Source: Kineococcus sp. NBC_00420 (GTDB lineage: Bacteria > Actinomycetota > Actinomycetes > Actinomycetales > Kineococcaceae). From it: a DNA stretch of 64,000 nucleotides. The position numbers and the translations under genes are program-made. Below are positions 21,995 through 43,546 of this stretch, piece by piece. The stretch spans positions 558,001-622,000 of the forward strand of contig NZ_CP107930.1 in the NCBI RefSeq assembly GCF_036021035.1. The letters run 5' to 3'. Position 1 is the first letter of the stretch; each line of letters starts with the position of its first letter. The notes under the pieces were generated by a model. It ran no database searches, was not told the origin of the DNA, and worked only from the letters and a program-made list of their open reading frames with translations.

Positions 21995-22011
21995 GCTGAA
22001 CCGCGGCTGAG
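21995..22011 (-). promoter_or_regulatory. 17-bp direct-repeat operator upstream of DUF347-A
   Basis: Minus strand CTCAGC-CGCGG-TTCAGC. The two half-sites are 11 bp apart, the geometry of OmpR/PhoB-family binding sites. One of six such elements in the accessory region; it lies 74 nt before the chosen start. Confidence 0.6.
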
Positions 22012-22016
22012 AGCGG

Positions 22017-22643
22017 TCAGCGGCGTGAGGTGGTTCCTCGCCGCGACCTCAGCAGTTCCACCAGCACCGGCAGCAGCGAGACCACCACGACGACGGCGAT
22101 GATCGGCAGCAGGTAGGCGTCGATCCCGGGGATCTGCCCACCGAGCACGTGTCCGGCGAGAGTGACCCCGAGGGCCCAGAGGAGCCCCCCGACGCACTGC
22201 CACAGGGTGAAGGTGCGGGCCGGGACGCCCACCGTCCCCGCGAGGGGGTTCATCAGCGTCCGGACCACCGGGATGAACCGCGCGAGGACGATCGCCTTGC
22301 CGTGCCCGTAGCGTTCCAGGACGGCGCGGGCGCGCTGCACCCCCGCGTAGCGCCGGCGGTGCTCAGGACGCTCCAGCAGAGCCGGACCCGCGGCCCGGCC
22401 GATGAGGTAGCCGACCTCCGCCCCCAGCAGGGCCCCGCCGACCGCGGCCAGGAGCACCGGGACCAGGGACAGGTGGACCGAGGAGCTGACACCCGTCGCC
22501 GTGAGCAGCCCGGCGGTGAAGAGGAGCGAATCGCCGGGGAGGAAGAACCCCACGAGCAACCCGGTCTCGGCGAAGAGGATCACGAAGACCCCCAGGATCC
22601 CGAAGGACGACAGCAGGTGCTGGGGGTCCAGCAGCGCGCTCAC
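22017..22643 (-). CDS. DedA family membrane protein, copy A
   Basis: 208 residues. DedA/SNARE-associated signatures: ETGLLVGFFLPGDSLLFTAG, GYLIGRAAGPAL and RFIPVVRTLMNPLAGTVG. DedA proteins are polytopic inner-membrane proteins; several act as lipid (for example undecaprenyl phosphate) flippases and protect membrane homeostasis. The GTG start overlaps the stop of DUF347-B by 4 bp, so the pair is coupled. Confidence 0.92.
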   Translation of the reverse strand: MSALLDPQHLLSSFGILGVFVILFAETGLLVGFFLPGDSLLFTAGLLTATGVSSSVHLSLVPVLLAAVGGALLGAEVGYLIGRAAGPALLERPEHRRRYAGVQRARAVLERYGHGKAIVLARFIPVVRTLMNPLAGTVGVPARTFTLWQCVGGLLWALGVTLAGHVLGGQIPGIDAYLLPIIAVVVVVSLLPVLVELLRSRRGTTSRR

Positions 22644-23485
22644 GACGACAACGAGGAGGAGGACGACGAGGCGGCCGGGGCGCCGCGCCGGTCGGGGGCG
22701 TCGACCCTGCTGACACTCAGGTAGACCACCACCGCCAGGATCGCCGCGAGGAACAGGACGCTGGTCACCGTGGTCCCCAGACCGAGACCGCCGTCGGCCC
22801 GGTCCTGCGACAGCAGGTCACCCAGGGACGCGCCCAGCGGGCGGGTCAGGACGTAGGCCGCCCAGAACGTCCCGACGGCGTTCAGGTGCAGCCCGAAGCG
22901 CAGCACGGCCACCACGGCGATCGCGACGGCGAACAGGACGACGGAAGCGAGGTAGCCGATGCCGGTCGTCTCGGCCACGAAGTCACCGGCCGCGGTGCCC
23001 AGGGCGAAGGTGAAGAGGATGGTGAGCCAATAGAAGGCTTCCCGCCGGGGGCTGTCGATCGCGTGGATGGACAGCGTGCCCTCGACCCGGTGCCACGTCA
23101 GGAACGTCGCGGTCAGCAGGACCGCGAAGACGATCGTGGAGGCCAGGAGCGGCACCCCGAGACCGTCGGTGAGGTTGTCGGTGAGCAACGTCCCCACGAC
23201 GCTGATCAGAACCACGGCCAGCCAGTAGACCGGGGGCCGGTAGCCACGGCTGCGGAACTGCACCACGAGCACGACCGCGAGCAGCACCGTCATGACGATG
23301 CTGGTCGCGGTGAGACCGAAGCCGAGAGTCTCGTTCAGGTAGTCCGCCGCGGTCTCCCCCACCGTGGTGGCCAGCACCTTGACGATCCAGAAGAACGCGG
23401 TGACCTCGGGAACCTTGTTCGCCGCCGTGCGCAGGGCGGCACCGGTGCCGCCCCGGGGTCCCCGGCGAGCAGGAGTCTGTGTCAT
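22640..23485 (-). CDS. DUF347 (COG4705) membrane protein, copy B
   Basis: 281 residues from ATG 23485 (MTQTPARRGPRGG); the open frame goes to 23548 but that region holds the operator. Core: NKVPEVTAFFWIVKVLATTV, FYWLTILFTFALGTAAGDF, AYVLTRPLGASLGDLL; tail of consecutive serines. About eight helices. It is closest to copy D (42721) and to the N-terminal remnant at 33768. Function unknown; pairing with dedA points to the membrane or cell envelope. Confidence 0.9.
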   Translation of the reverse strand: MTQTPARRGPRGGTGAALRTAANKVPEVTAFFWIVKVLATTVGETAADYLNETLGFGLTATSIVMTVLLAVVLVVQFRSRGYRPPVYWLAVVLISVVGTLLTDNLTDGLGVPLLASTIVFAVLLTATFLTWHRVEGTLSIHAIDSPRREAFYWLTILFTFALGTAAGDFVAETTGIGYLASVVLFAVAIAVVAVLRFGLHLNAVGTFWAAYVLTRPLGASLGDLLSQDRADGGLGLGTTVTSVLFLAAILAVVVYLSVSRVDAPDRRGAPAASSSSSSLSS

Positions 23486-23507
23486 GTCCCCAGGGTGGCG
23501 GGAGTGT

Positions 23508-23524
23508 GCTGAACCTCCGCTGAG
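23508..23524 (-). promoter_or_regulatory. 17-bp direct-repeat operator upstream of DUF347-B/dedA
   Basis: Minus strand CTCAGC-GGAGG-TTCAGC, ending exactly 22 nt before the ATG at 23485. The same 22-nt distance occurs at DUF347-D and the phosphodiester glycosidase. Confidence 0.65.
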
Positions 23525-24393
23525 CGCCTCGACCATCATCTCGTCCACGCAGGTCAGGACGGTGCAGGTGCTGCTGACCGAGGTCGGGTCTGCCCCTGCT
23601 GACCGCCGGCCTGCTGGGATCGATGGGCCGGATCACCTCCAGCGTCGACAACGGGCGATGGAGAGTCTCCGGTGCACGTTGCCGCGCGAACTGCTGAACC
23701 CGCAGGTCGTGGTCCACGAAACGGAACTGGGGACAGCACCGTTCGAGCGGAACGGGGTGTTGTGTTCTGCGAACCCGTCGACGTCGTTCCGGCGTCGGTT
23801 GCCGCAAACCTGTCGAGCACGAAGCCCTCCCCACCACAGTGACTGCCAGCCACTCAGGTCGATGAGAAACCCTGCGTTCCCGGAGTTCACCCCTGCGGGG
23901 CTTCGCGGTAATGGGCGTGTCGACGTTGTCACCCTTGCGATTGCCTGACGATCAAACCTCGACCAAGAGGTCCTCACCATTGATCCGCAATGCCACCATC
24001 GGCACCAGTGCCTCCGATCAGGAGAGTCCGTCCTGAGCCAACCGTTGTCAGCAGAAGTTCAGGATCAAATGCAGTGGAGCGAGTTCCCAGAAGCGGGTCG
24101 AGGGTAGCCTCCTCTACCTGGCGCGGTACAAGAGGGACCCATACTCTTCTGCTCATGCACCACTTTCCGGACGACCGTCGGGCCCGGTCGGAGTACGTTC
24201 ACCCCTGAAGCGGGAGAATCCCGAGCCTGCCCATCCCCCAGGGGACGAACCACCCGGTCACCGGGGCAGGCGCAGGCTCGCCACGTGGTCCTGGCGCCAC
24301 ACCAGCCTGTGCGAGCCAGGCTCGGACCGCCCCAGCGGTGCGCCCCCGCAGCGAGAAGTCCTGTCACCACCACTGCCGAGAGGGCGAAACACC
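23525..24393. other. Intergenic stretch without recognised gene
   Basis: About 870 bp between DUF347-B and katG. Base composition is slightly less GC-rich than its surroundings and short open frames occur on both strands, but none has a ribosome site, a convincing length or a recognisable family. It may be decayed insertion DNA. It presumably includes the katG promoter near its right end; no Fur-type box was recognised. Confidence 0.5.
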
Positions 24394-27740: not shown

Positions 27741-28130
27741 GCCGTTGCCGGTACTGCTGGTCGGGACGATGGAGGCGATCGAGTGCCGCCGATGTCCCCA
27801 CCCGCACCCTGCGTGCTTCCTGATCGCGCCACCCTCGACGGCAATCGCGTACGCCGGCCACTTCGTCGTGAGGGGCGGGGTGCCACTCGCGGCCTGCACG
27901 TGCGACGACCCGAGCGCTCTCGAGACCGACCTGCAGAAGCGATCGTGTGCGCACACACGGTGCCGGGGTTCAGCCGGTGATGGAGATCCGGTCCGACGAA
28001 CTTCGTCACTCGGGGCTCCCCCTCAGAAGGGCTTCGGTCGGCGGCGTCCAGGGTGGCGGAGCCCTGCTCGGAGCCGGTGCGGGAGGATCAGGACCGGTAC
28101 GGGCCGTCCGAGGTGAGGGAGGTGGTTCCG
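27741..28130. other. Intergenic stretch upstream of histidine kinase
   Basis: About 390 bp with no recognisable gene. A single TTCAGC half-site occurs near 27970, without an 11-bp partner. Promoter position is not identifiable. Confidence 0.4.
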
Positions 28131-29609
28131 GTGATCGCAGTAGCGCGGCGCGGGGTCGAGGAGATCGTCCGCTGGTGGCTGGGGGCGGGCGTGCAGGTCC
28201 GCTCGACCGTCGCCGCGACCCTGCTGCAGGCCGCCGTCGTCGCGGCGGCGGGAGCGGTCCTGCTGCTCGCCCTGCACAACAACCTCCAGACCAGCATCGA
28301 CGCCGGCAACCTCGCCACCGCCCAGGGAATCTCCGCCTTCGTCGACCAGGAGATCGCCGGCTCCTCGGCAGCCTCCGTCGACGACGCTCCCGACCGCGAC
28401 GACCTGCAGGGCGCCATCGACGCCGCCGCCCAGCGCCGAGCAGTGGTCCAGGTCCTCAACGCCGACGGCGCGGTCATCGCCTCCAGCAGCGACCTGCGAG
28501 GTTTCCGATCCGTGGCACACCGGATGCCCGCCGTCGGCGGGACCGAGATCTTCCAGGAGGGCTTGCCCTTCGACGACGATCCCTACCGGTTCACCGCTCT
28601 GGGTGGCGAAGCCGACGGCACCCGGTTCACCGTCCTCATCGGAGAGTCGCTCGGCACCGGCGAGGACACCCTGCACGCAGCCGAGGTGGCCCTCGCCGTC
28701 GCGGGGCCCCTGCTGCTGCTCGCGGTGGCCGGCGCGACCTACCTGTTCATCGGGCGGTCCCTGCGTCCCGTCGCGAAGATCCGTTCCACCGTCGAGGGCA
28801 TCAGCCTGCGCGACCTCTCCGAACGGGTGCCCGTCCCGCCCGGGAACGACGAGGTCTCCCAGCTCGCGCGGACCATGAACGCCATGCTCGTCGACCTCGA
28901 CCGGGCCACCACCGCGCAACGGCAGTTCGTCTCCGACGCCAGCCACGAACTGCGCAGTCCGGTCGCCACCCTGCGGGCTGCCGCCGACATCGCCCTCACG
29001 GTGCCGAACAGGGCTGACCGCACCGACCTCGCGGTCCTGGTGCGGGGCGAGGCGATGCGACTGGATCGGCTCGTGGCCGACCTGCTGTTGCTGGCCCGGG
29101 TCGACGAACACGGCCGGAACTCCGCCGTCACGTCGCGACGTGACGAGGTGGACCTCGACGACCTCGTCACCGCGGAAGCCCGTCGGCTGCGGTCCGCCAC
29201 GACGCTCGCCGTCTCCGTCCACCGCGAACCGGCCCGGATCATCGGCGACGAGCACGCGTTGTCGCGAGTCCTGCGCAACCTCACCGACAACGCCGCCCGC
29301 CACGCCGTGACGGCGGTGTCCATCACTCTGCACCACAACGACTCCACCGCGGTCCTGGACGTGGTCAACGACGGCCCCCCGATCCCCGGCCAGGATCGCG
29401 AACGCGTGTTCGACCGGTTCGTGCGCCTGGAGGAGAGTCGTGCCCGCGACCTCGGCGGCACCGGTCTGGGGCTGGCCATCGTCCGCGAGATCGTCCTGGC
29501 CCACGGCGGGAGCGTCCGCGTCCTCGACCCCGACGACGGCCCGGGGACGTGCTTCCGGATCGAACTCCCGATCTCGGAGTTCCCGGACTCCCCGGAACTC
29601 ACGGACTGA
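28131..29609 (+). CDS. Sensor histidine kinase (TM-sensor-TM-HAMP-HisKA-HATPase)
   Basis: About 492 residues from GTG 28131, chosen because GGGAGG stands 8 nt upstream; earlier in-frame starts lack one. TM1 (VAATLLQAAVVAAAGAVLLL), an extracellular domain of about 140 residues, TM2 (VALAVAGPLLLLAVAGATYL), HAMP, H-box DASHELRSPVATLRAAADI, N-box RNLTDNAARHA, G1 VNDGPPIP and G2 GGTGLGLAIV. All kinase boxes are present. It faces an OmpR-type regulator tail to tail, the two stop regions overlapping by 11 bp. A decayed copy of its N-terminal half is at 41515-41985. Confidence 0.93.
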   Translation: MIAVARRGVEEIVRWWLGAGVQVRSTVAATLLQAAVVAAAGAVLLLALHNNLQTSIDAGNLATAQGISAFVDQEIAGSSAASVDDAPDRDDLQGAIDAAAQRRAVVQVLNADGAVIASSSDLRGFRSVAHRMPAVGGTEIFQEGLPFDDDPYRFTALGGEADGTRFTVLIGESLGTGEDTLHAAEVALAVAGPLLLLAVAGATYLFIGRSLRPVAKIRSTVEGISLRDLSERVPVPPGNDEVSQLARTMNAMLVDLDRATTAQRQFVSDASHELRSPVATLRAAADIALTVPNRADRTDLAVLVRGEAMRLDRLVADLLLLARVDEHGRNSAVTSRRDEVDLDDLVTAEARRLRSATTLAVSVHREPARIIGDEHALSRVLRNLTDNAARHAVTAVSITLHHNDSTAVLDVVNDGPPIPGQDRERVFDRFVRLEESRARDLGGTGLGLAIVREIVLAHGGSVRVLDPDDGPGTCFRIELPISEFPDSPELTD

Positions 29610-30264
29610 CGAAGCGGTAGCCCGAACCCCGGATCGTCTCGATGTAGTCGCGACCGACCTTGCGGCGCAGGTACCCGACGTAGACCTCGACGAGGTTCTC
29701 GTCACCGTCGTAGAACTCGTCCCAGACGTTCTCGAGGATGTTCGTCTTCGTCAGGACGTCGCCGGCGTGGCGCATGAAGTGGTGCAGCACCTGGAACTCC
29801 CGCGCGGTGAGGCGGACCTCCTCGCCGCGCAGGTGGACCCGCTGCTGAGCGGGGTCGAGGGCGAGTTCCCCGGCGCTCAGCGTCGCGGGCCGCTCGGGCG
29901 CACCGCGCCGGACCAGCGAACGCAACCGGGCGACGAGGACCTCGAAGGAGAAGGGTTTGCGCAGGTAGTCGTCGGCACCGAGGTCGAACGCGTCGGTCTC
30001 GTCGTACTCCCCGTCCTTGGCGGTCAGCATGAGGATCGGGGTCCAGACCTCGCGCGCCCGCAACGTCCGGCACACCTCGTAGCCGTTGAGCACCGGGAGC
30101 ATGATGTCCAGGACGACGACGTCGAACGCCCCGGCGGTGGCCCGCTCCAACCCGGAACCCCCGTCGTGGACGACCTCGACGCTGAACCCGACCCCGGTCA
30201 GCCCCGACGACAGCGTCGCGGCGAGCGTGACCTCGTCGTCGACCAGCAGCACCCGCACCGTCAT
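29599..30264 (-). CDS. OmpR/PhoB-type response regulator
   Basis: 221 residues from ATG 30264. Receiver: LLVDDE, Asp in VVVLDIMLPVLNGYEV, Thr in MLTAKD, Lys in YLRKPFSFE. Then a winged-helix DNA-binding domain ending VYVGYLRRKVGRDYIETIRGSGYRFV. It is the natural partner of the convergent kinase and the only OmpR-type regulator in the window. It is therefore the best candidate to bind the CTCAGS-N5-TTCAGC elements of the accessory genes; this is inference. No such element stands before its own start. Confidence 0.94.
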   Translation of the reverse strand: MTVRVLLVDDEVTLAATLSSGLTGVGFSVEVVHDGGSGLERATAGAFDVVVLDIMLPVLNGYEVCRTLRAREVWTPILMLTAKDGEYDETDAFDLGADDYLRKPFSFEVLVARLRSLVRRGAPERPATLSAGELALDPAQQRVHLRGEEVRLTAREFQVLHHFMRHAGDVLTKTNILENVWDEFYDGDENLVEVYVGYLRRKVGRDYIETIRGSGYRFVSP

Positions 30265-30296: not shown

Positions 30297-30435
30297 ACGA
30301 CTCGCACGGAGGCGACGACACCCAGCGCGAGGAGCACGGCGAGCACCACACCGAGCGCGACCCGGTACCCGGCGAACACGCTGATGCGGTGCCCGGCGAC
30401 GATCCTCAGCAACCACGCGATGGCCGCCGAGAACG
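30297..30435 (-). pseudogene. C-terminal remnant of uppP
   Basis: The minus strand reads WLLRIVAGHRISVFAGYRVA then LGVVLAVLLALG, nearly identical to the last 45 residues of the intact UppP at 39655 (WLLRFVAHHRISVFAGYRVT). Everything N-terminal is missing and the original stop codon is lost, the frame running into the regulator leader. It is a truncation remnant just upstream of the regulator gene. Confidence 0.85.
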
Positions 30436-33767: not shown

Positions 33768-33898
33768 CTACCGACCGGAGTCCACCGAAGTCGGGGCAGC
33801 CCCTTTCCCGACGGTGGTGGCCAGGAACTTCACCATCCAGAACCCGGCGGTGACTTCAGGGACCTTGTTCGCCGTGGTGCGCAAGACCCCGGTGCCGG
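33768..33898 (-). pseudogene. N-terminal remnant of a fifth DUF347 gene
   Basis: Directly after the stop of DUF347-C the minus strand reads GTGVLRTTANKVPEVTAGFW, MVKFLATTVG, then KGAAPTSVDSGR and a stop. The first 30 residues match copy B (GTGAALRTAANKVPEVTAFF, WIVKVLATTVG); the rest of the gene is gone. It shows a former tandem arrangement of two DUF347 subtypes. Confidence 0.85.
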
Positions 33899-33899: not shown

Positions 33900-34835
33900 T
33901 CAGCGGGTCACGCCGTCATCGTGGCGCTCGGAGGTCGAAGCGTCGCTGAGAGCGTGTCGTGCCCGCTCCACTGTGGCGTCGCCGGGCTCAGACCGCTTCC
34001 GATTCGTCGACGGCCCGGATCCCGCGCCGGGAGGCGGGATGTCTGCGACGGGTGCGACACCGCGCTGCACGTCATCGCCGCGGCGCACCATGACAGCGAC
34101 CAGCACTGCGATCAAGACGATCGCGACCAGGGTGACGGGGCCGTCGCCCAGACCGAGGCCGGCTCCGATCGAGTGCTCCTTGCCGAGCCAGTCAGCGAAG
34201 GAGGCACCCAACGGACGGGTGAGGACGTATGCAGCCCAGAACGTCGCGATGGGGCTGGCCCCGGCCCGCCAGGCGAGGAGCGGGACGGCGATCGCGGCGG
34301 TGAACAGCAGACCCGAGGGCAGGAAACCCAGGTGCATGGCCAGGCCGGTGAGGTCGCCTACCGCCGTGCCCAGGGCGAACGTGGCCAGGACGGTGGCCCA
34401 GTAGAACCGTTCGCGACGCACGGTGGTGATGCTGTGGACGTCCAGGGTGCCTTCGCTACGCCGCCACCAGGTGAACATCACCACCACCGCCAGTGCGTAT
34501 AGCGCCGAGGTCGCCCACAGCGGCAGGCCGGAGGCGACGTGCAGGACATCGGCGAGGATGGTGCCGAACACCGCGATCATCGAGACGCAGAACCAGTAGA
34601 CGGGGGCGCGGTAACGCTCGGCCCGCAACTGCAGGCGCAGAGCCAGGACGAACCCGCCGACGCCGACGACGCCGCCCAGGATGAGGTTCGTCTCCCCCAG
34701 GTAGTCCGAGGCCGCCTCGCCCATACCCGTGGTGAGGACCTTGACGACCCAGAACAACACGGTGATCTCGGGGACCTTCGCGGCTGTGATGCCGGGGGAA
34801 GGCAACAAGCGGAAGAGACGGGGCGTTCGGGTCAT
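33900..34835 (-). CDS. DUF347 (COG4705) membrane protein, copy C
   Basis: 311 residues from ATG 34835. Core features KVPEITVLFWVVKVLTTGMG, FYWATVLATFALGTAVGDLT and AYVLTRPLGASFADWLGKEH; about eight helices and a hydrophilic, charged C-terminal tail of roughly 50 residues. Most similar to copy A. It lacks the CTCAGS-N5-TTCAGC operator found at copies A, B and D; instead an inverted repeat CTACTT-N7-AAGTAG lies 62 nt upstream, so its control is probably different. Confidence 0.9.
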   Translation of the reverse strand: MTRTPRLFRLLPSPGITAAKVPEITVLFWVVKVLTTGMGEAASDYLGETNLILGGVVGVGGFVLALRLQLRAERYRAPVYWFCVSMIAVFGTILADVLHVASGLPLWATSALYALAVVVMFTWWRRSEGTLDVHSITTVRRERFYWATVLATFALGTAVGDLTGLAMHLGFLPSGLLFTAAIAVPLLAWRAGASPIATFWAAYVLTRPLGASFADWLGKEHSIGAGLGLGDGPVTLVAIVLIAVLVAVMVRRGDDVQRGVAPVADIPPPGAGSGPSTNRKRSEPGDATVERARHALSDASTSERHDDGVTR

Positions 34836-34897: not shown

Positions 34898-34916
34898 CTA
34901 CTTCGTCGTCAAGTAG
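34898..34916. promoter_or_regulatory. Inverted repeat CTACTT-N7-AAGTAG before DUF347-C
   Basis: A perfect 6-bp inverted repeat 62 nt upstream of the ATG at 34835. Its CTACT...AGTAG ends match the repeat at 26988-27007. It is a possible repressor site, not a terminator, as the stem is weak. Confidence 0.35.
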
Positions 34917-34962
34917 AAGAGATCGCGTTGATCGGGAGCGAGGTAGCGGTCGGCCTGGCGGC

Positions 34963-35717
34963 TCACGTCCGGTAGCAGCGTCGTGGGTTCACTACGGACC
35001 CGCTCGAGTCCCAGCGGGAGGACGACACCATGCCGGTGTGCATGTCCAGCTCCATGGCCCGGACCGCACCGGCCTGCACGAGGGCCCCGGCCAGGTGGAC
35101 GAGATCGAGCTCGTCGCCTGCCACGCGGAGCAGGTTTCCGTGTCGATCCACCCCCAGCGCCGAGCGCCAGGTGTACTGGCCCTGGTTGCGCAGGTTGGGC
35201 ACGTCGGCTGGATCCACCCGGCCCTCACCGGGCCACGAAGCACCATCGGGCTGACGGGTCCCAGTGACCAGGTGTGCGGTGGTCGCCCTGGCGTGTCCAG
35301 GCGGCGGCGGCCACCACCTGCGGGTGGTCTGAGTCGGGTGGAACTACGTCGTGCAGAGCGCCGGCGCACTGTCGACGCCGATGCGTCCGGGTGACCATTG
35401 CCCGAACCACCAGTTTCGGCAGCGTCCACGAGATGGCTGCCTCCGTGCTCGCGCACCCACTCCACCGTGCGGACGGAGGCAGGCGCCGCGCCAGGAGTGA
35501 TCATGGCTCGGCCCAGCGAGATCCCCGGGACGGCGCGGAGGCAGAACGCCACGATCGCGACCGCACGTCGGCGACGTCTCCTGCTCTCGGTGTTCACGGT
35601 GGTGGGCGCGGAAAGTTGCTCGGAGACGAACCCCAGCAGGAGCTCGAGGTCGCGGTCGCCGGCGTGCACGTGTCCGACCCCCAAGGACCTTGCGTCTTCG
35701 TCGTCGATCGGTTGCAT
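34963..35717 (-). pseudogene. Decayed phosphodiester glycosidase gene
   Basis: Pieces of the intact gene at 43569 can be read in different minus-strand frames: RTVEWVREHGGSHLVDAAE (against RSVEWVRDNGGGRVVDAAE), then DSDHPQVVAAAAWTR (against DAAHPEVIAGAAWIE), then DVPNLRNQGQYTWRSALGVD and AGAVRAMELDMHTGM. The central part of about 95 residues is deleted, the join falling between VPNL and RNQ, and there are at least two frameshifts. It cannot make a working enzyme. Confidence 0.85.
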
Positions 35718-35803
35718 CACGGCAAGGACCTCATGGTGCCAACCTGCCTCGTGACGGTTGAAGCCCCGCTGAGTGCACCTGGTGCAGTTGTCCACGTTCC
35801 GGC

Positions 35804-36658
35804 TCAGGTCGGCTCGCCGGCCAGGCGGTAGGTCCCAACAGCCATCAGGACGAAGCCGACGACGTCGCCGGCCAGCAGCAGCGTCGCGGTCCCGGGACGT
35901 TCCCCGAACACGACGACGCCGAACGCGATCGCAAGGAGCGGATCGACGACGTTGGAGGCGGGCATCGACGCCGACAGCGGAGCGACCTGGTAGGCCCGCT
36001 GGTTCAGCAGCAGCCCGCCGGCGCCCAGCAAGAGCAGAGCCCACACCGGCCAGTCGGTGAGCAGCCCGAGTACTCCGCCGCCCAGGTCGTGGACGGCGAG
36101 CTTGAGGACGCCGGCGAGCAGCCCGAACAGGGCCCCGGCACCGACACCCAGGAACACCCCGCGCACGGTGGAACGACTCGAACGCACCGCAGCGCAGACG
36201 GCGAACAGCGCCAGGGCCACGCCGGCAGCGACCACGGCGCCCGCACGCCCGTCTGGTGTTCCGCTGTCGTCCGCACCGCCGCCAGTGTTCTCGGAAGGAG
36301 CCCCGGCGAGGAGCAGAGCCAACCCGATGGCGACGAGGCAGACGTTCACCAGTTCTCGTCCCGAGGGCGCGCGGCGAGCTAGCACTGCCTGCACCAACAC
36401 GGTCAGCACCAGTCCGCTGACCATGATGGGTTGCACCAGGGCCAGGGCTCCACCACCGAGGGCCGCGGCGTGCAGGACGAATCCGAGGCCGGCGGTGATC
36501 TGCGCGATCCACCACAGGGGTTGGCGCAGCAGCCGCCGAAGCAGGTACAGCGCCCCGCCGCCGGCGACAGGCACGCGTACGGCGCACAGGTGCTGCAGAG
36601 CGGTCGAGACCGCGAAACCCGCAGCGGCGCCGAACGCGGCCAGAACCGTCAGCACCAC
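35804..36658 (-). CDS. EamA/DMT-type transporter
   Basis: 284 residues from GTG 36658 (CCGGAG upstream); the longer open frame is hydrophilic and unlikely. About nine to ten helices in two halves, ending SASMPASNVVDPLLAIAFGV and AGDVVGFVLMAVGTYRLAG, which fits the drug/metabolite transporter superfamily. Third gene of an operon with a glycosyltransferase and a polysaccharide deacetylase, so it may move a lipid-linked or sugar intermediate. The substrate is unknown. Confidence 0.8.
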   Translation of the reverse strand: MVLTVLAAFGAAAGFAVSTALQHLCAVRVPVAGGGALYLLRRLLRQPLWWIAQITAGLGFVLHAAALGGGALALVQPIMVSGLVLTVLVQAVLARRAPSGRELVNVCLVAIGLALLLAGAPSENTGGGADDSGTPDGRAGAVVAAGVALALFAVCAAVRSSRSTVRGVFLGVGAGALFGLLAGVLKLAVHDLGGGVLGLLTDWPVWALLLLGAGGLLLNQRAYQVAPLSASMPASNVVDPLLAIAFGVVVFGERPGTATLLLAGDVVGFVLMAVGTYRLAGEPT

Positions 36659-36716
36659 CGGGATCTCCGGAGTCGTGAGGAACGTAAGGGTCTTGGGGAT
36701 CCGCCCCGCCCCATCC

Positions 36717-37457
36717 TCACCGGACGCCGTCGATGTGCTCGCTGAGGGTCCGCACCTCCAGCTCCCGGCGGGCGAGCTCGAGGCCCAGCAGGGGCAAGGT
36801 CTCGGCCGTGGCACGCCACGAACCGGCAGTGCTGGTGCAGTCGGAGTCGTGCAGGAGCACGGTGCCCCGATCAGCCAGATCACGGGTGATGATCTGCAGG
36901 ATCCTCGGCGCCGTCGTGACTTCCCAGTCCCGCCCCCAGGACGTCCACAGCACCGGCGTGAGGCCGAAGGTGGCTGCGGCGTGCAAGGAACCGGCGCTGA
37001 GCACCCCGTAGGGCGGGCGGAACCAGCGGGGCGATGTTCCCGTCACCGCTCGCACCTCACCGCAGGCTCGCGCCAGGTCGCGGTGGATCCAGGCCGGGGA
37101 CCGGGTGAGGTGGTTGCGGTGCTCGTCGCCGTGGATGGCCACCTCATGACCTTCGGTGACCACTGACCGCGCCACCTGTGGGTAGCGGCGGACCTGCCGC
37201 CCGAGCATGAAGAAGGTCGCTTTCCAGCCCAGGGCGGCCAGTGCGGTCAGCACGGCGGGAGTTCCCTCCGGATCGGGCCCGTCGTCGAAGGTGAGAGCAA
37301 TTCCTCCGGGTCGTCCCCGCCCGGTCAGGGCCGGCGTGGCCCGCCGCAGCGGACCGCGTGCGCTGAGGGCCGGAGCGGCGTACGCGCCAAGCACTCCGAG
37401 TGCGGTTGCGCTCAGTGCCGCGACCAACCGGACTCGTCGTGGCGGGTGGGGTTCCAT
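36717..37457 (-). CDS. Polysaccharide deacetylase (NodB/CE4 family)
   Basis: 246 residues. N-terminal signal or anchor (VRLVAALSATALGVLGAYAA), then the CE4 motifs: TFDDGPDPEG with the catalytic and metal Asp pair, the metal His pair in AIHGDEHRNHL, RWFRPPYGVLS, and LLHDSD near the end. It removes N-acetyl groups from cell-wall or exopolysaccharide sugars outside the membrane. The ATG overlaps the glycosyltransferase stop (TGATG), so the two are coupled. Confidence 0.93.
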   Translation of the reverse strand: MEPHPPRRVRLVAALSATALGVLGAYAAPALSARGPLRRATPALTGRGRPGGIALTFDDGPDPEGTPAVLTALAALGWKATFFMLGRQVRRYPQVARSVVTEGHEVAIHGDEHRNHLTRSPAWIHRDLARACGEVRAVTGTSPRWFRPPYGVLSAGSLHAAATFGLTPVLWTSWGRDWEVTTAPRILQIITRDLADRGTVLLHDSDCTSTAGSWRATAETLPLLGLELARRELEVRTLSEHIDGVR

Positions 37458-38659
37458 CAGATTCCTGCGGGAGGGGTGGAGGGAGTTTGGGAGCTGGGCT
37501 GGGCGGGCCTCGGCAAGCCCAGGCTCGCCAGCACGACCTCGGTCGGGTCGGGGAGGGAGGCGAGGATGCGGGTGCGGGCGAGCTGGCGGTGCAGGACGTC
37601 GGGCAGTGCCGCAGGGGTTCGGGCCCACAGCGCGAGGCCTGAACGGTCCAACACCGAGGCATTGGCCCGGCCGTGTCCGGGGATGGGCCGGTAGGTGACG
37701 GCCGGCAGCCCGGCAACGAGGGCTTCGGTGAAGGAGAGACCGCCGGCGTTCTGGACCAGGACGTCGGCCAGCTGCATCAGCTCGTGAACGTCGCTGCGCC
37801 AGCCCAGTGCGACCGCTCCCGGCACCTCCCTCACCCGACGTCGCAACCTCTCGTTGCGACCGCACAGCACCAGGGGCACCAGTCCCGCAGCGCTGACGTC
37901 ACGCACCGAAGGCAGCACGTCGCCCAGCCCCAGCGATCCCGCCACCAGCAGGGCCACGGGTCGGCCCGGCGGCAGGGCCAAGGTGGCGCGCAGGTGGACG
38001 AGCCGTTCCAGGTCTGCCGGGCGGGCGAAGCGAGCGGGCACCAGGGGGCCGGCGACCACGAACGACGTGGCGTATGCGGCCGCGCCCTGCTGAGCGGTGG
38101 CAGCCGTCACGGTGAGGTGCTCATCGACGCTCGGGTGCAGCCAGCTGATGTGCGCGGCAGGGTCGGTGAGGTAGGTGAGCACGCGAGCCGTCAGCGATCC
38201 CGCTGCTCGCAAACCGCCCAGGCATTGACTCGCCAGCGGGTAGGTCGACACGACGACGTCCGGCTGTACCTGCTCGATCCAGCGCTGCACGTCGCTGCTG
38301 CCGGAGGTGCAGATGGCCTTCTCGACGCGCCAGAGCAGGCTCTTGCGCTCCAGGCGTCGGAACAGCAGTTCGTACGCCGCCGGGACGTACCCGACGCTCG
38401 ACGTGTATCCCTCCCGCAGCAGACGCGCGGACGCCGAGGGGAGGGCGCTGAGGAAGTCGCGCACCTCCACCACCACTCCCGCCGCGCGCAGGCGGGCAGC
38501 GAGTTCCTTGGCGGCGCCGTCGTGGCCCGCTCCCACGCTGCCCGACACCACCAGAACCCTGGGCGCGTGCCCGCGAGGGCCGGGTGAGGGCAGGTGAGGA
38601 TGGCCGAGTGAGGGCAGGTGAACCGCTGCTGTGGAACCGGTGGTCGCGGCTGGACTCAC
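37457..38659 (-). CDS. Glycosyltransferase, MGDG-synthase/MurG-like (GT28)
   Basis: 400 residues from GTG 38659, which overlaps the stop of a small upstream ORF by 4 bp; GTG 38698 is an alternative. The conserved region starts RVLVVSGSVGAGHDGAAKEL, typical of diacylglycerol glycosyltransferases, and continues with VVSTYPLASQCLGGLRAAG, GSLGLGDVLPSVRDVS and the donor-binding LVQNAGGLSFTEALVAGLPA. It probably adds sugar to a membrane lipid. With the deacetylase and EamA genes it forms an envelope-modifying operon behind one of the six 17-bp operators. Confidence 0.9.
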   Translation of the reverse strand: MSPAATTGSTAAVHLPSLGHPHLPSPGPRGHAPRVLVVSGSVGAGHDGAAKELAARLRAAGVVVEVRDFLSALPSASARLLREGYTSSVGYVPAAYELLFRRLERKSLLWRVEKAICTSGSSDVQRWIEQVQPDVVVSTYPLASQCLGGLRAAGSLTARVLTYLTDPAAHISWLHPSVDEHLTVTAATAQQGAAAYATSFVVAGPLVPARFARPADLERLVHLRATLALPPGRPVALLVAGSLGLGDVLPSVRDVSAAGLVPLVLCGRNERLRRRVREVPGAVALGWRSDVHELMQLADVLVQNAGGLSFTEALVAGLPAVTYRPIPGHGRANASVLDRSGLALWARTPAALPDVLHRQLARTRILASLPDPTEVVLASLGLPRPAQPSSQTPSTPPAGI

Positions 38660-38778
38660 GACGTCGGGCACGCGCAGAAAAGGCCCGTCCAGGCGCACTG
38701 GGCGGGGACGGTGTCGGGGGCGGTGTCGGTTCGGGAACGGGAAGACGTCAACGAGCGCGGGTCCGCTGTCCGGATCAT
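38656..38778 (-). CDS. Possible 40-aa upstream ORF coupled to the glycosyltransferase
   Basis: ATG 38778 begins 23 nt after the 17-bp operator, a spacing like that at other genes of the set. The 40-residue product (MIRTADPRSLTSSRSRTDTA, then PDTVPAQCAWTGLFCACPTS) has no known family. Its TGA overlaps GTG 38659 of the glycosyltransferase. It may be a leader peptide or the frameshifted original start of the transferase. Confidence 0.4.
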   Translation of the reverse strand: MIRTADPRSLTSSRSRTDTAPDTVPAQCAWTGLFCACPTS

Positions 38779-38801
38779 GTCTGGCACTCTCACACAGTTC
38801 T

Positions 38802-38818
38802 GCTGAACCCCTCCTGAG
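38802..38818 (-). promoter_or_regulatory. 17-bp direct-repeat operator of the glycosyltransferase operon
   Basis: Minus strand CTCAGG-AGGGG-TTCAGC, half-sites 11 bp apart, 23 nt before the small upstream ORF. Confidence 0.6.
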
Positions 38819-38919: not shown

Positions 38920-39350
38920 GTCGAGACCGCAACCTCGCCTCTGCTTCTCCCCGTCGTCCTGACCTGCATCGTAGAGGCCGTCGAAGTGTTGACCGCCGTA
39001 CGTGCGATCGGGGTGACTCGCGATCGGCGTTCCAGCGGTCTCGGTATTCTGGCTGCACTCTCGGTGATCGTTGCCGCTCTGGGGCCCACGTTGACGGCGA
39101 TACCGCTCAACGCTACGTCTGATCGTGGAGCGCTGCTGCTGGTCTTCGGCCTGCAGTGGCTGCGCAAGGCGATCCTGCGAACTGAGGGACGGAAGGCCCT
39201 GCACGACAAGGCGGCACTCTTCACCGCTCACGCCCAGGCGCCCCGTGCCGAGACCGTGCAGAGGGCCTCCGGTCTGGACGTTCAGGCCTTCACCCTCTGC
39301 AGCGAAGCTGTCCTGCCGGAGGGTCTGCTTGACGTCGATATCGCCTTCTG
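38920..39350 (+). pseudogene. Decayed COG4280-like gene
   Basis: The plus frame reads VEAVEVLTAVRAIGVTRDRR, LLLVFGLQWLRKAILRTEGR and KALHDKAALFTAHA, closely matching the intact gene at 20237. The second acidic motif has mutated (PEGLLDVDIAF against LEGLEVVFIVL), an internal stretch is missing and homology ends at about 39350. The open frame continues to 39423 in unrelated sequence. The product would lack the last two to three helices. Confidence 0.85.
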
Positions 39351-39359
39351 CTCCTCGGC

Positions 39360-39590
39360 GAGCCCAGGGCCCGGTACCACCAACGTTCTCCAGCCGATGA
39401 GGTTCAGGCTGCTGGATCGGTGAACGGCCGGCGACGAGCACCGAACCCCGGGTGGGTGAAACCTCCCCGCAGACCATCACGGGGAGGGTGGACCCGCCGG
39501 CTCCGCCGGGTCCGACCATGGCCGTGATGCGGCCCGCGCGAGGGCCGAAGGAGGCGTCCTGGACCACGGTCCTGCTCCGGAACGACTTTG
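39360..39590 (-). pseudogene. N-terminal remnant of an ABC transporter ATPase
   Basis: The minus strand reads VVQDASFGPRAGRITAMVGP, GGAGGSTLPVMVCGEVSPTR, then GSVLVAGRSPIQQPEP. This follows the start of an ABC ATPase with GPNGAGKSTLLR changed to GPGGAGGSTLPV, losing the Walker A lysine. Nothing of the Walker B or signature regions remains. It abuts the decayed COG4280 copy on the opposite strand. Confidence 0.7.
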
Positions 39591-39654: not shown

Positions 39655-40497
39655 TCACACCGCGGCGAGGGTTCCCGTGCCCAGCAGCGCGAGAAGCACG
39701 ACGCCGAGGGTGACCCGGTATCCTGCGAAGACGCTGATGCGGTGGTGGGCGACGAAACGCAGCAACCAGGCGATCGACGCGTACGCCACGACGAGGCTCA
39801 CAAGAGTCCCCACGGCGGTGGCACCCCACCCCACGGTGGCCGAGACCTCGGACCCTGCTGAGATCCCCTCGTAGAGACCGGCCGCGGTCAGCGCCGGGAT
39901 CGACATGAAGAACGACAGCCGGGTCGCGGTCACCCGGTCCAGACCGCGGAACAGGCCGGCGCTGATGGTGGCCCCGGACCGCGAAACCCCCGGAACCAGG
40001 GCGAGGCACTGGAGCAGCCCAATGGCGACCGCGTCCTGGAGGTTGACCTGGGCCTCACCGTGCTGCACGGCGCGGCGGGCAGCGAAGCTCTCCGCAGCGA
40101 TCATGACGAAGCTCCAGCCGATGAGCGCCACGGCCACGACCCACAAGCTGCGCAGTGGACCGGAGACGACGTCCTTGGCCAGGAAACCCACCACCCCCAC
40201 CGGGACCGACCCGACGATGACGCACCACGCCAGCCGGTAGTCGCTCTGGCGTGCAGCGGGGTTCCGCAGTCCCCGGACCCAGGCCAGCAGCAGCCGGACG
40301 ATGTCGCGGCGGAAGTACCCGACGACCGCGATGATCGCACCGAACTGGATGATCGCGGTGAACGCCGTGGTCCCGGCGTCATCGACCCGCAACCCTAGGA
40401 GCTTCTCGACGATGGTGAGGTGTCCGGTGCTGGACACGGGGAGGAACTCGGTGAGTCCCTCGACGATGCCGAGGACGACGGCCTGCCACAACTGCAC
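39655..40497 (-). CDS. uppP: Undecaprenyl-diphosphate phosphatase UppP (BacA)
   Basis: 280 residues from GTG 40497 (CAGGAAG 6 nt upstream). Signature regions LGIVEGLTEFLPVSSTGHL (catalytic Glu and Ser) and LVPGVSRSGATISAGLF (catalytic Arg), eight helices. It recycles the lipid carrier for peptidoglycan and polysaccharide synthesis and can confer bacitracin tolerance. The intact copy sits beside decayed dedA and ABC fragments; a C-terminal remnant of a second uppP is at 30297. Confidence 0.96.
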   Translation of the reverse strand: MQLWQAVVLGIVEGLTEFLPVSSTGHLTIVEKLLGLRVDDAGTTAFTAIIQFGAIIAVVGYFRRDIVRLLLAWVRGLRNPAARQSDYRLAWCVIVGSVPVGVVGFLAKDVVSGPLRSLWVVAVALIGWSFVMIAAESFAARRAVQHGEAQVNLQDAVAIGLLQCLALVPGVSRSGATISAGLFRGLDRVTATRLSFFMSIPALTAAGLYEGISAGSEVSATVGWGATAVGTLVSLVVAYASIAWLLRFVAHHRISVFAGYRVTLGVVLLALLGTGTLAAV

Positions 40498-40524
40498 GGT
40501 GCTTCCTGACTCTGGTCCGGTTGG

Positions 40525-40552
40525 TTCAGCGATCTTCTTGGGAGGGTTCAGC
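40525..40552 (+). promoter_or_regulatory. Two TTCAGC half-sites 22 bp apart upstream of uppP
   Basis: TTCAGC at 40525-40530 and at 40547-40552, two 11-bp periods apart, on the strand opposite to uppP. It is a weaker relative of the 17-bp operators; orientation argues against a simple activator role. Confidence 0.35.
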
Positions 40553-40887
40553 GGGAGTGCTGCAGCGCCCGACGGCGCAGGTCGCGGCGGCCGACCACGA
40601 CGACCACGTTGCTGACAGTGGTGGCGATCCCGCTCACGACCGAACCGGTCGTGGCGGTGACCAGCACCAGGGGCAGGGACAGCCGTCCCTGCTGGGCCGG
40701 GAAGCCCGCCAGTGGCAGGACGACTTCGCTGGGCGCAGGTGGGATGAGGGTTTCGACGAGCGTGAGGAAGCCGACGCCGACCTCCCGCAGCATCGATGAG
40801 GTCCGCAAAGAACCCGGTGACCCCGGCCAGCCCCGCAGTACCGGTCGTAGGGGTGCTCAGCCCCGCGACGGCGGTGAGAGTGGACAA
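40548..40887 (-). pseudogene. Truncated, frameshifted dedA gene
   Basis: The minus strand reads LSTLTAVAGLSTPTTGTAGL and AGVTGFFADLID. After a frameshift near 40800 it continues LREVGVGFLTLVETLIPPAP, SEVVLPLAGFPAQQGRLSLP, then VTATTGSVVSG before homology ends. This is the N-terminal third of a DedA protein of a third type (ETLIPPxPSEVVLPLAGF). The catalytic-like Arg region is missing. Confidence 0.85.
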
Positions 40888-41041
40888 GAGATCTCCAGGT
40901 GGTCGGCGCGTAGTCGGGATCGACGGTCGCGAGGTGAGCACCGGTCGTTGGCGACGACCATGGCAGTCCAGTCCTGAACGCCACCTGAGGTACCACCGCG
41001 AGAGATCGCCACGAGAGATCACCGCACGATGAGGTCCGAGG

Positions 41042-41480
41042 TCAGTGCCTGACGAGATCGGTCAGGTAGATGCTCATGACCTGCCCCACGCCGACGGTGG
41101 TGCAGGCGGTGACGATCTTCTTCCGCGCGTCCGCGACGTACCCGTCCCGTTGCCCGGCGGAGATCAGTCGGGCCTCGGTGAGCCCACTGAACTCGTTGAT
41201 CACGACATCGACGGCCTTGCTGCCGTCGGGGGCTGTGGTGGCGGCGGTTGTGGCCTGTAGCACGACCCGACCTCGAGGTAGTGACCGAGGGCGAGGTTGA
41301 CGCTGATGGGTTCCAGTGCCACCACAGCCCCCACGACGGGAGCCGGAGTGGTCACGGCCGCTGCTGGACGGGTGAAGCACCAGGCATCCCGTCCCCGCCG
41401 GGGATCAAGACAGCGGCGGCCGCTGCGCTGACGATGACCTTCTTCCTGCGGCCCGCCGGTTTGCCTCGGCGGGCGTCGTG
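41042..41480 (-). pseudogene. Decayed second copy of fliL
   Basis: Segments in different minus frames match the intact FliL at 44778: GKPAGRRKKVIVSAAAAAVL (against KPGGKKKMIIIAAGAAVLLA), ALEPISVNLALGHYLEVG (against ALDPISVNLADGHYLKIG), DGSKAVDVVINEFSGLTEAR (against DGSKAYDLIINEYSNLSMSD) and MSIYLTDLVRH with a stop. At least two frameshifts separate them. It lies in the same orientation as fliL, between fliL and fliM. Confidence 0.9.
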
Positions 41481-41514
41481 TGGTCGACCGAACCAAGGTG
41501 CCGCGAGGTCGACC

Positions 41515-41985
41515 ACCTGGTGTTCGGCGGCTGCCGCGAACTGCTCGACGACCCTGTCGGATCATGCTGTGGTGGCTCGAAGCCGGGGTCCAGGTGTCCT
41601 CCGCCGCCGCCGGGTGCAGGCCCTCGTCGCCGTTGCGGCCGACGCGGTACTGCTGTTGGTGCTCAACGACTTCCGGGTCAGCCTCGACGCGACCAACGTC
41701 GCCACGGCCCAGTTCACCGCCCCGCTCGTCACCGTCGACATCGCCAGTGCGCCCGACGCGGCGAGAGCGGCGAACGCTGCCGGGCACGCAGCCCTGCAGG
41801 AGGCGATCGACGCCGACGCCGACGGTGTGGTGGTCGCCGCCAGCAACGACCTCGCGGGAGCGGCGGCATTCCTCGACGACCGCCCGGCAGCCGATGGATC
41901 GAGAGGCGGCAGCTACGTCTCCCCTTCGACGACGACCCCGAGCGCGACCGCTCGCCGGTGGAGCACGGAAGGACTCCTCAGGAGG
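41515..41985 (+). pseudogene. N-terminal remnant of the histidine kinase
   Basis: Plus-strand frames give LWWLEAGVQVSS (against VRWWLGAGVQVRS), AVAADAVLLLVLNDFRVSLD, ATNVATAQ (against IDAGNLATAQ), ALQEAIDADADG and PFDDDPERD (against PFDDDPYRF). These match the sensor part of the kinase at 28131 up to the start of HAMP. Two or more frameshifts are present and all catalytic domains are lost. Confidence 0.85.
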
Positions 41986-42604
41986 TGGGTGTGCGATGCC
42001 GGCGGCGTCGCAGGGACCAGACCAGGAGGACGACCACCGCGACGACCGCGACGAGGACACCGCTGCCCCGACCGAGCCACTGCGCCGCAGCGGAGTAGGA
42101 CGCGCCGGCGGAGTAGCCGACCAGGACGGCCGCGACGGCCCAGACGATCCCGCCGACGACGTTCCAGGCGGCGAAGCGCCCGTAGGGCATGCGCGCCGTT
42201 CCCGCCAGGGCCGGGGTGACGGCCCGCAGGAAGGCGGTGAACCGACCGAGGAACACCGCGCCGCCCCCGCGACGTTCCAGGAGGTCGCGGGCCTTCTCCA
42301 GGCCGACGGCGTGCCGGCGCAGCGGCCCTGCGGCGAGCAGGCGGGAACCGAACCGCCGCCCGACGAGGTAGCCGACGCTGTCGCCGGCCACCGCTGCGAG
42401 CGCGACGACGGCGAAGGCCACCGGCAGCGGCGTGTGCCCGAGGTTCGCGGAGGCGCCGGCGACGATCGCAGCCGTCTCACCGGGCACCACGAATCCCACG
42501 AAGAGCGCGTCCTCGGCGAAGACCAGCAGGGCGACGACCACGAGCAGCCACACCGTCGGCACCGCCAGCAGGGCAGCCACCACGTGCTCCACCGCCCTCA
42601 CCAC
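41978..42604 (-). CDS. DedA family membrane protein, copy B
   Basis: 208 residues; tandem GTG codons at 42604 and 42601 make the start uncertain, with GGAGG immediately before. Signatures: FAEDALFVGFVVPGETAAIV, GYLVGRRFGSRL, RFTAFLRAVTPALAGTARM. Several helices and a basic tail. It has its own 17-bp operator 34 nt upstream and is divergent from DUF347-D, so the dedA/DUF347 pairing seen at 22-23.5 kb recurs here in a different orientation. Confidence 0.9.
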   Translation of the reverse strand: MVRAVEHVVAALLAVPTVWLLVVVALLVFAEDALFVGFVVPGETAAIVAGASANLGHTPLPVAFAVVALAAVAGDSVGYLVGRRFGSRLLAAGPLRRHAVGLEKARDLLERRGGGAVFLGRFTAFLRAVTPALAGTARMPYGRFAAWNVVGGIVWAVAAVLVGYSAGASYSAAAQWLGRGSGVLVAVVAVVVLLVWSLRRRRHRTPTS

Positions 42605-42638
42605 CTCCGCTCGACTGCGAGGAGCATCCGACAGGCGC

Positions 42639-42655
42639 GCTGAACCCTCGCTGAG
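42639..42655 (-). promoter_or_regulatory. 17-bp direct-repeat operator of dedA copy B
   Basis: Minus strand CTCAGC-GAGGG-TTCAGC, half-sites 11 bp apart, 34 nt before the dedA-B start. Confidence 0.6.
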
Positions 42656-42681
42656 GACGGGTCGGTCCTCCTCGGGCCGTC

Positions 42682-42698
42682 CTCAGGAACCCTTCAGC
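42682..42698 (+). promoter_or_regulatory. 17-bp direct-repeat operator of DUF347-D
   Basis: Plus strand CTCAGG-AACCC-TTCAGC, ending exactly 22 nt before the ATG at 42721. It faces the dedA-B operator 26 bp away, so one intergenic region serves both divergent genes. Confidence 0.65.
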
Positions 42699-42720
42699 AC
42701 CACCCCGTCACGGTGAGTGC

Positions 42721-43497
42721 ATGACATCTCCCCTGCGCACCGCCACGAACAAGGTTCCCGAGGTCACCGCCTTCTTCTGGATCGTCAAGGTCCTCGCCAC
42801 CACGGTCGGCGAGACGGCCGCCGACTACCTGAACGAGACCCTCGGGTTCGGCCTGAGCGCCACGAGCATCGTCATGGGCCTCCTGCTGGCGATCGTGCTC
42901 GTCGCGCAGTTCCGGTCGCGCACCTACCGGCCCCCGCTGTACTGGCTCGCCGTCGTCCTCATCAGCGTCGTCGGCACCCTGATCACCGACAACCTCACGG
43001 ATGTCGCCGGAGTTCCGCTGATCGCCTCGACGGTCGCCTTCGCGGTCCTGCTGACCGCCACGTTCGCCGTCTGGTACGCCCGGGAGGGGACGCTCTCGAT
43101 CCACGCCGTCGACTCCCGCAGCCGCGAGGCCTGGTACTGGCTGACCATCCTCTTCACGTTCGCCCTCGGTACCGCCGCCGGCGACCTCATCGCGGAGGAG
43201 GCGGGTCTCGGCTACCTGCCCTCGGTCGCGTTGTTCGCCGCGGCCATCGCCGTCGTCGCCGTGCTGCGCTTCGGCGTCAAGCTCAGCGCCGTGGCGACCT
43301 TCTGGGCCGCCTACGTCCTGACCCGCCCGCTCGGCGCTTCGCTCGGCGACCTGCTGTCGCAGGCCAAGGGCGACGGGGGACTCGGCCTCGGCACCACCGC
43401 CACCAGCGCGATCTTCCTCGCCGCGATCCTCGTCGTCGTGGTGTACCTGACCCGCAGCCGCATCGACTCCCCCGACCGCGGACTCGTGACCCGCTGA
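42721..43497 (+). CDS. DUF347 (COG4705) membrane protein, copy D
   Basis: 258 residues, the shortest copy, with hardly any tails: MTSPLRTATNKVPEVTAFFW, the internal repeat WYWLTILFTFALGTAAGDLI, and AYVLTRPLGASLGDLLSQ. About eight helices. Closest to copy B. Preceded by the 17-bp operator and followed, 71 bp on, by the phosphodiester glycosidase with its own operator. Function unknown. Confidence 0.9.
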   Translation: MTSPLRTATNKVPEVTAFFWIVKVLATTVGETAADYLNETLGFGLSATSIVMGLLLAIVLVAQFRSRTYRPPLYWLAVVLISVVGTLITDNLTDVAGVPLIASTVAFAVLLTATFAVWYAREGTLSIHAVDSRSREAWYWLTILFTFALGTAAGDLIAEEAGLGYLPSVALFAAAIAVVAVLRFGVKLSAVATFWAAYVLTRPLGASLGDLLSQAKGDGGLGLGTTATSAIFLAAILVVVVYLTRSRIDSPDRGLVTR

Positions 43498-43529
43498 ACC
43501 GCTGACTCGCCCGGCACAGCGCGCCCGGA

Positions 43530-43546
43530 TTCAGCGCAGTTTCAAC
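43530..43546 (+). promoter_or_regulatory. 17-bp direct-repeat operator of the phosphodiester glycosidase
   Basis: Plus strand TTCAGC-GCAGT-TTCAAC, half-sites 11 bp apart, ending exactly 22 nt before the ATG at 43569. Confidence 0.6.

Follow-up and report, generated by a model that had tools for sequence, protein, structure and literature searches.

A direct-repeat element ahead of envelope genes in Kineococcus sp. NBC_00420 and its candidate binder, an OmpR/PhoB-type response regulator

We describe a short direct-repeat element that recurs ahead of genes for membrane and envelope proteins in a 64,000-nucleotide stretch of the genome of Kineococcus sp. NBC_00420 (contig NZ_CP107930.1, positions 558,001 to 622,000; class Actinomycetes, order Actinomycetales), which we refer to as the window. 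An original prediction, made from the letters of this stretch alone, had named six elements of the form CTCAGS-N5-TTCAGC, all pointing in the direction of transcription, and had proposed that they mark an envelope regulon controlled by a two-component system encoded in the same region. All six are present at the places named, each oriented toward its gene. The form is exact at five of them, whereas the site at 43530 reads TTCAGC-GCAGT-TTCAAC and fits it only loosely, with two mismatches. A -10-like box of the form NANNNT lies exactly 10 bp after every one of the six, and the coordinates given below span the element, these 10 bp and the box.

Two of the six lie on the minus strand in the first part of the region. 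The element CTCAGC-N5-TTCAGC with box CAGCAT (21979..22011, minus strand) stands ahead of DUF347-A (21030..21923, minus strand; PF03988), whose start we place by inference at 21923; another ATG, at 21980, shares bases with the -10-like box. Next to DUF347-A is a membrane permease noted as COG4280 (20237..21130, minus strand), with a weak match to OFeT_1 (PF16955, 27.5 bits against a cut-off of 26.9). The element CTCAGC-N5-TTCAGC with box CACCCT (23492..23524, minus strand) precedes DUF347-B (22640..23485, minus strand; PF03988), the ATG of which, at 23485, lies 6 nt past the box and 22 nt past the element, and the end of DUF347-B is overlapped by DedA-A (22017..22643, minus strand; VTT domain PF09335). 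Farther along, CTCAGG-N5-TTCAGC with box GAGAGT (38786..38818, minus strand) is found ahead of an operon encoding a glycosyltransferase (MGDG_synth; 37457..38698, minus strand), then a polysaccharide deacetylase (36717-37865) and a DMT-family transporter (35804-36883). The closest ATG here, 23 nt past the element, opens a short open reading frame, and the glycosyltransferase GTG is 87 nt past the box. The remaining three are clustered: CTCAGC-N5-TTCAGC with box GATGCT (42623..42655, minus strand), 18 nt past which begins, with a GTG, the gene for DedA-B (41978..42604, minus strand; VTT domain); CTCAGG-N5-TTCAGC with box CACGGT (42682..42714, plus strand), followed 6 nt past the box by the ATG of DUF347-D (42721..43497, plus strand); and TTCAGC-N5-TTCAAC with box CAGGGT (43530..43562, plus strand), likewise 6 nt ahead of the ATG of a phosphodiester-glycosidase-like protein (43569..44714, plus strand; NAGPA PF09992, 23.1 bits, just below the cut-off of 25).

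Beyond these six we observed additional elements at 14715 (plus strand) and at 33950, 35773 and 40989 (all minus strand), so that seven elements in total precede intact genes and three precede gene relics. The first, TTCAGG-N5-TTCAGC with box CACACT (14715..14747, plus strand), is 55 nt ahead of a gene for a ferric-reductase-like membrane protein (14803..16215, plus strand; PF01794). A decayed element with one mismatch and box CACGAT (33918..33950, minus strand) lies ahead of a 35-codon remnant resembling the start of DUF347-B (33795-33896), and CTCAGC-N5-TTCAAC with box CAGGTT (35741..35773, minus strand) lies ahead of a broken glycosidase copy (34904-35552) whose ATG is 22 nt past the element. 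Finally, CTCAGG-N5-TTCAGG with box CATGGT (40957..40989, minus strand) precedes a dedA-like relic, recognized by eye, and then an intact gene for a UppP/BacA undecaprenyl-diphosphate phosphatase (39655..40497, minus strand; PF02673); the order element-dedA-uppP recurs in two relatives (G148 and G162; loci L180 and L183). DUF347-C (33900..34835, minus strand) has no element directly ahead of it.

The two-component system consists of a sensor histidine kinase (28053..29609, plus strand) with HAMP, HisKA and HATPase domains and a response regulator (29599..30264, minus strand), our candidate binder of the element, which has the receiver (PF00072) and winged-helix (PF00486) domains of the OmpR/PhoB family with E values of 4e-26 and 7e-25. 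Their genes are convergent and overlap at their ends. This order is unusual for a two-component pair; it is also seen in L088, L092, L097, L102, L183, L186, L193 and L194, and with a 1.8-kb gap in L180. The regulator falls short of all 25 NCBIfam cut-offs listed for regulators, including those of CseB (191 bits against 350), the CzcR/CopR-type model TIGR01387 (186.6 against 279.2), PhoB (176.6 against 296.2) and MtrA (164.6 against 300). The best NCBIfam match of the kinase is to the heavy-metal sensor family, below the cut-off of that family. In a tree of 59 regulators, the window regulator falls inside a well supported clade (100/98) of 26.

We next consider how specific the element is to this region. 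In the 5,434,400-bp genome the exact 17-mer occurs five times, always inside the window, and a reversed control does not occur. Loosened matches behave differently: with up to two mismatches the 14 matches in the window are unremarkable, as 8 of 100 shuffles reach that count, and with up to one mismatch there are 33 genome sites against 30 reversed controls. Since such loose matches are at about the control level, we place weight only on matches that are exact or coupled to a -10-like box. The combined 33-bp pattern, YTCAGS-N5-TTCARC-N11-A-N3-T, has eight exact matches in the genome, all within 29 kb at 572,715-601,562 (14715-43562 of the window), and its reversed control has none. These eight are the six sites already named together with those at 14715, ahead of the ferric-reductase-like gene, and 35773, ahead of the broken glycosidase copy; near matches are found at 33950 and 40989, ahead of gene relics. 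The outcome named in advance as refuting the original prediction, a motif equally frequent genome-wide, was not observed for its exact or -10-coupled form, but it was for loose matches. Given that the 33-bp pattern was partly derived from window sites, we also used a matrix trained on 34 sites, all from loci outside Kineococcus. Its top eight in the window are the six named sites, 40989 and 14715. Seven of these score 20.1-27.1, with 40989 the highest in the window, and 14715 scores 16.9; 20 first-order Markov nulls score no higher than 18.7.

The arrangement of the element is that of an OmpR/PhoB-type operator, in which half-sites stand 10-11 bp apart as direct repeats: the half-sites YTCAGS-N5-YTCAGS form a direct repeat 11 bp apart, and a (C/G/T)ANNNT box lies exactly 10 bp beyond, a fixed short distance past the repeat as in activator-dependent promoters. 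Since the repeat ends 10 bp before the -10-like box, its downstream half occupies the place of a -35 box, from which we infer activation. The gap of exactly 22 nt to the ATG that had been noted at DUF347-B, DUF347-D and the glycosidase is indeed present at all three, and the relic glycosidase copy behind the element at 35773 has the same gap.

To look beyond this genome we collected loci by their regulator genes rather than by the motif. The first set consisted of 40 neighborhoods chosen by regulator matches, from which regulator loci with a previously identified strict site were excluded; L224, among the 40, shares its contig with L097, where elements had already been seen. The second set consisted of 38 neighborhoods chosen in the same way outside the order. 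Pairs of [CT]TCAG[GC] were counted at every distance of 6-30 bp. In the first set the 11-bp distance has 26 pairs and every other distance 6 or fewer; the combination of 11 bp between half-sites and 10 bp to the box has 18 matches against 3 in the next cell, or 14 loci against 3 when counted per locus. In the second set there are 45 pairs at 11 bp, and the same combination has 35 matches against at most 4 in other cells, or 22 loci against 3. Spacings of 10 bp (17 pairs) and 21 bp (14 pairs) are also found in the second set, and we rejected our reading of them as noise, since most arise where a third half-site stands 10 bp upstream of a pair with 11-bp spacing (L281, L296, L299-L303, L307, L314, L316 and L318). 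By its placement, this third half-site may hint at binding of a trimer in those genomes. Downstream of 30 such 11-bp pairs of the first set, with G also allowed in first position, 80% have A at +12 and 90% have T at +16. We observed 22 elements in 17 of the 40 loci (12 genera) and 37 elements in 23 of the 38 loci (12 genera), with none for the two control patterns in the first set or for the controls in the second. The regulator gene lies within 3 kb of 18 of the 22 elements and 33 of the 37.

An ATG or GTG lies 6-7 nt past the box at 12 of 22 distinct elements in the first set and 8 of 36 in the second. Since this holds for part of the elements, some but not all of the regulon is probably transcribed into leaderless mRNAs. 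The -35/leaderless geometry originally proposed finds support in the -10-like box, set 10 bp from the element, and, at some genes, in the close start codon, but many targets are not leaderless.

Motif-first scans point in the same direction. When 394 genomes of the class were scanned with the leaderless form of the pattern, 12 of them yielded 13 sites in all; the control yielded none. Eight of the 11 sites outside this genome lie no more than 1.5 kb from a gene of the regulator family. At a ninth (L268) the neighbors are PAP2 and DUF347 genes, and a family gene is located about 6 kb off. The sites in L272 and L273 adjoin no regulator gene and may be due to chance. The regulator family (E up to 1e-54) is present in 12 of the 12 site-bearing genomes, compared with 179 of the 394 overall (Fisher 6e-5). 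In the scan of the order, 13 of the 61 genomes that have the family contain the strict site, compared with 6 of the 137 that lack it (Fisher 4e-4), and all six genomes with at least two sites have the family. Among 11 Kineococcus genomes, five have a regulator of at least 74% identity, and in all five there are elements close to it: in four the distance is at most about 3.3 kb, and in the genome studied here it is 6.1 kb for the nearest one that precedes an intact gene; the strict pattern is present in four of the five and in none of the other six (Fisher 0.015).

We then assigned the genes behind the elements to families by Pfam or by similarity to window proteins. The regulator gene itself starts within 40 nt past a box in 19 loci, comprising those fetched via a motif match (L177, L178, L188, L189, L190, L269, L271, L274 and L275) and others (L228, L249, L292, L296, L297, L305, L306, L307, L311 and L318), and a kinase gene lies behind an element in L092, L102, L222, L225 and L281. 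Families represented in the window are DUF347, DedA, UppP, phosphodiester glycosidase and ferric reductase; a homolog of the last also carries an element in G162 (L185/L262). Further targets encode PAP2 phosphatases (L088, L092, L221 and L222), LCP proteins (L178 and L249), a family-2 glycosyltransferase (L179), parts of LPG synthase (L218 and L231), PepSY proteins (L101, L231, L254, L296, L299, L301, L303 and L306), DUF2231 proteins (L181 and L285), an MspA porin that matches solved MspA (L308) and, with matches at the cut-off, PMT_2 (L084) and DUF2092 (L314) proteins. In family f37 (L299-L303) the element is situated between the PepSY gene and the regulator gene. No Pfam family was found for the target proteins of L176, L177, L229, L247 and L281. 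Judged by these predicted families, the targets share an envelope theme that includes several undecaprenyl-phosphate and lipid-modification enzymes. The term envelope regulon fits these targets, and the original prediction appears to be largely correct, but the regulon is class-wide rather than local.

Taken together, the regulator-chosen neighborhoods, the co-occurrence of sites and family, and the elements before regulator genes elsewhere support the earlier proposal that the nearby OmpR/PhoB regulator is the binder. On this sequence evidence we consider it very probable that the element is the operator of the regulator at 29599-30264 and of its actinobacterial relatives, and that these activate envelope genes from the -35 place. 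Such a system would work as follows. The kinase would sense envelope damage or metal/cationic stress, a signal that we assume; the regulator, once phosphorylated, which is likewise assumed, would occupy YTCAGS-N5-YTCAGS as a tandem dimer where a -35 box would otherwise lie, and would recruit RNA polymerase to a weak -10. This would switch on envelope genes encoding DUF347, DedA, UppP, phosphatases, glycosyltransferase and glycosidase, several of them as leaderless mRNAs. In many relatives the regulator gene itself would also be a target, apparently not so in this strain.

Several observations weigh against this assignment. In this strain there is no element ahead of the start of the regulator gene, and, counting those ahead of intact genes, the closest element is 6.1 kb from it. 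At the stringency used, 23 of the 40 and 15 of the 38 regulator loci contain no element, and several loci come from related species, so that the counts are not fully independent. The family occurs in 179 of the 394 class genomes and the strict leaderless pattern in only 12, and many targets are not leaderless. The strict site is also present in six genomes of the order that lack the family, while reversed controls occur in 3 of 198. Within Kineococcus, the relaxed pattern is found in five of the five genomes with a close regulator and in two of the other six, and the Fisher value falls to 0.045; relaxed sites without a close ortholog are found in G032 (two) and G106 (one), one relaxed-pattern site of the genome studied here (3903578) lies outside the window, the target of one site in G162 (contig 7) is not clear, and a single reversed control is found in G048. 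A second Kineococcus paralog of the regulator, with 57-62% identity (L237-L243), has a single element of looser form in one of seven loci. This paralog is found in several Kineococcus genomes (5244894 on contig C1 of the genome studied here, G000, and its orthologs). We found no helix signature that cleanly separates the element-linked regulators from the element-less Kineococcus paralogs, as RYLR is also present in the element-linked L218.

Of the other explanations, the least unlikely is a dedicated sigma factor that reads the element as a -35/-10 promoter without an activator, since the element ends at the -35 place and is paired with a -10-like box at a fixed distance. Nevertheless, repeats that are nearly identical and spaced 11 bp apart, in some cases joined by a third 10 bp farther upstream, suit a tandem winged-helix array better than a single sigma region 4, and the association observed is with a response regulator (no search for sigma-factor genes was made); we regard a sigma factor as very improbable. 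A SARP-type activator, which has an OmpR-like DNA-binding domain and is not a response regulator, is a slightly poorer candidate still. SARP/AfsR promoters share direct repeats 11 bp apart beside a suboptimal -10, and the afsS promoter contains TTCAGC and CACTGT (PMC10936776). This is a different class of regulator, however, and the distance from its repeats to the -10 is 8 bp in that account, compared with 10 bp for the element when 6-bp half-sites are counted. The genome contains two BTAD-domain genes, but both (at 1.08 and 2.10 Mb) are at least 0.48 Mb from the window elements, whereas 51 of the 59 elements in regulator-chosen loci are within 3 kb of the regulator gene, which is a target in 19 loci. 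Just as unlikely as a SARP is a local duplication that carried promoters along with a few genes under no common regulator: the decayed copies of DUF347-B, glycosidase, UppP and OFeT-like permease in the window and its four intact DUF347 copies favor it, but elements stand ahead of non-homologous genes (DUF347, DedA, glycosyltransferase, glycosidase and ferric reductase), and the same spacings recur in other families of the class.

If the element is an operator of the response regulator, its mode of binding has precedents. Tandem dimers on direct repeats are described as the rule for OmpR/PhoB regulators (PMC4832192), and tandem trimers have also been described for PhoP (PMC4832192, PMC6754071). 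Known operators include GTTCACC-N4-GTTCACC for Streptomyces PhoP, TCACAGC-N4-TCACAGC for Mycobacterium tuberculosis PhoP and GTTCACnnnnnGTTCaC for Microlunatus PolR (PMC4832192, PMC6754071). The PhoP and PolR operators likewise consist of a pair of direct half-sites with a TCA core, spaced 11 bp apart, to which winged-helix proteins bind as tandem dimers. The element differs from them in its half-site, (C/T)TCAG(G/C) rather than the GTTCAC or TCACAGC of PhoP, and in its targets, which are envelope and DUF347 genes rather than phosphate genes. CutR, the Streptomyces secretion-stress regulator, also belongs to a conserved two-component system for envelope and secretion, but in S. venezuelae it binds TAWATAAA (PMC12802291). 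Corynebacterium CopR and MprA likewise exert two-component control of metal or envelope genes, CopR through a tandem repeat; the CopR site TGAAGATTTnnTGAAGATTT (PMC3353115) and the C. glutamicum MprA motif TKTTAAGAAM (PMC12113857) differ from the element. These motifs were compared by eye, and on that comparison we rejected the identity of the element with the published CutR, MprA, CopR, PolR or PhoP motif. Our search of an open-access library, from which most subscription papers are absent, turned up no account of this operator, and no name for the regulator in Streptomyces or Mycobacterium emerged. The kind of system is known, being OmpR/PhoB by domain and mode, while this member is without description in the open-access literature searched.

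The targets also bear on DUF347, of which the window has four intact copies. DUF347-D is confidently predicted to fold into eight long helices (pLDDT 92.8), and none of the solved folds compared with the predicted structure stood out, so we draw no function for DUF347 from structure. The invariant charged residues include four aspartates, D35, D90, D155 and D210, one per repeat, that are invariant among 39 aligned sequences. When 42 DUF347 loci were examined, a strict element was present within 300 bp upstream in nine, a looser one in three and none in 30, the last including the proteobacterial loci and several actinobacterial ones, among them L075 (70% identity). In L088 the element is ahead of a PAP2 gene and DUF347 follows directly. 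In Frankia, three paralogous uppP-DUF347 operons are reported to be up under lead (PMC4531530). These operons also pair UppP with DUF347, and the accessible text of that report names no operator or regulator; in the Frankia locus L110 we found no element ahead of DUF347. Together with the weak match to the iron-lead-transporter family OFeT_1 beside DUF347-A and the heavy-metal sensor family nearest to the kinase, these operons provide leads on the signal and on DUF347. A broader proposal, which we consider improbable, is that the system is an undescribed, class-wide two-component control of polyprenyl-phosphate and envelope-lipid economy in which DUF347 would be a new type of transporter for polyprenyl-phosphate or an accompanying divalent cation. 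A DUF347 match in an AT-rich metagenome-assembled genome (L103, 6990-7754) is interrupted by 11 stop codons when read in the frame tried, which may reflect a frame slip or another genetic code.

Should the operator assignment hold, a regulator family present in 179 of 394 class genomes would gain a candidate operator, a promoter architecture and a list of targets, and the 33-bp pattern could be used to find envelope genes under control of this regulator. It would also place the orphan family DUF347 among genes for undecaprenyl-phosphate and lipid modification (UppP, PAP2, DedA, LCP and LPG synthases) and tie it to a testable signaling system. In mycobacterium-like genomes (family f22, so named by the MspA match alone), elements are found upstream of the regulator and also ahead of a gene for a porin of the MspA type, an unexpected link that can be checked. 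This is seen at L308 (10601-11436) and L309 (4010-4846), with DUF347 in the same locus.

Within the window, UppP, DUF347-B, the glycosidase and the OFeT-like permease each have a decayed copy among the intact genes, at 30305-30427, 33795-33896, 34904-35552 and 38926-39369. Two decayed copies still carry an element, and the region appears to be a hotspot of duplication and decay. Judged by eye, two further remnants are the dedA-like relic at about 40560-40870 (minus strand) and, at about 41480-41900 (plus strand), what looks like the beginning of another sensor kinase of this type.

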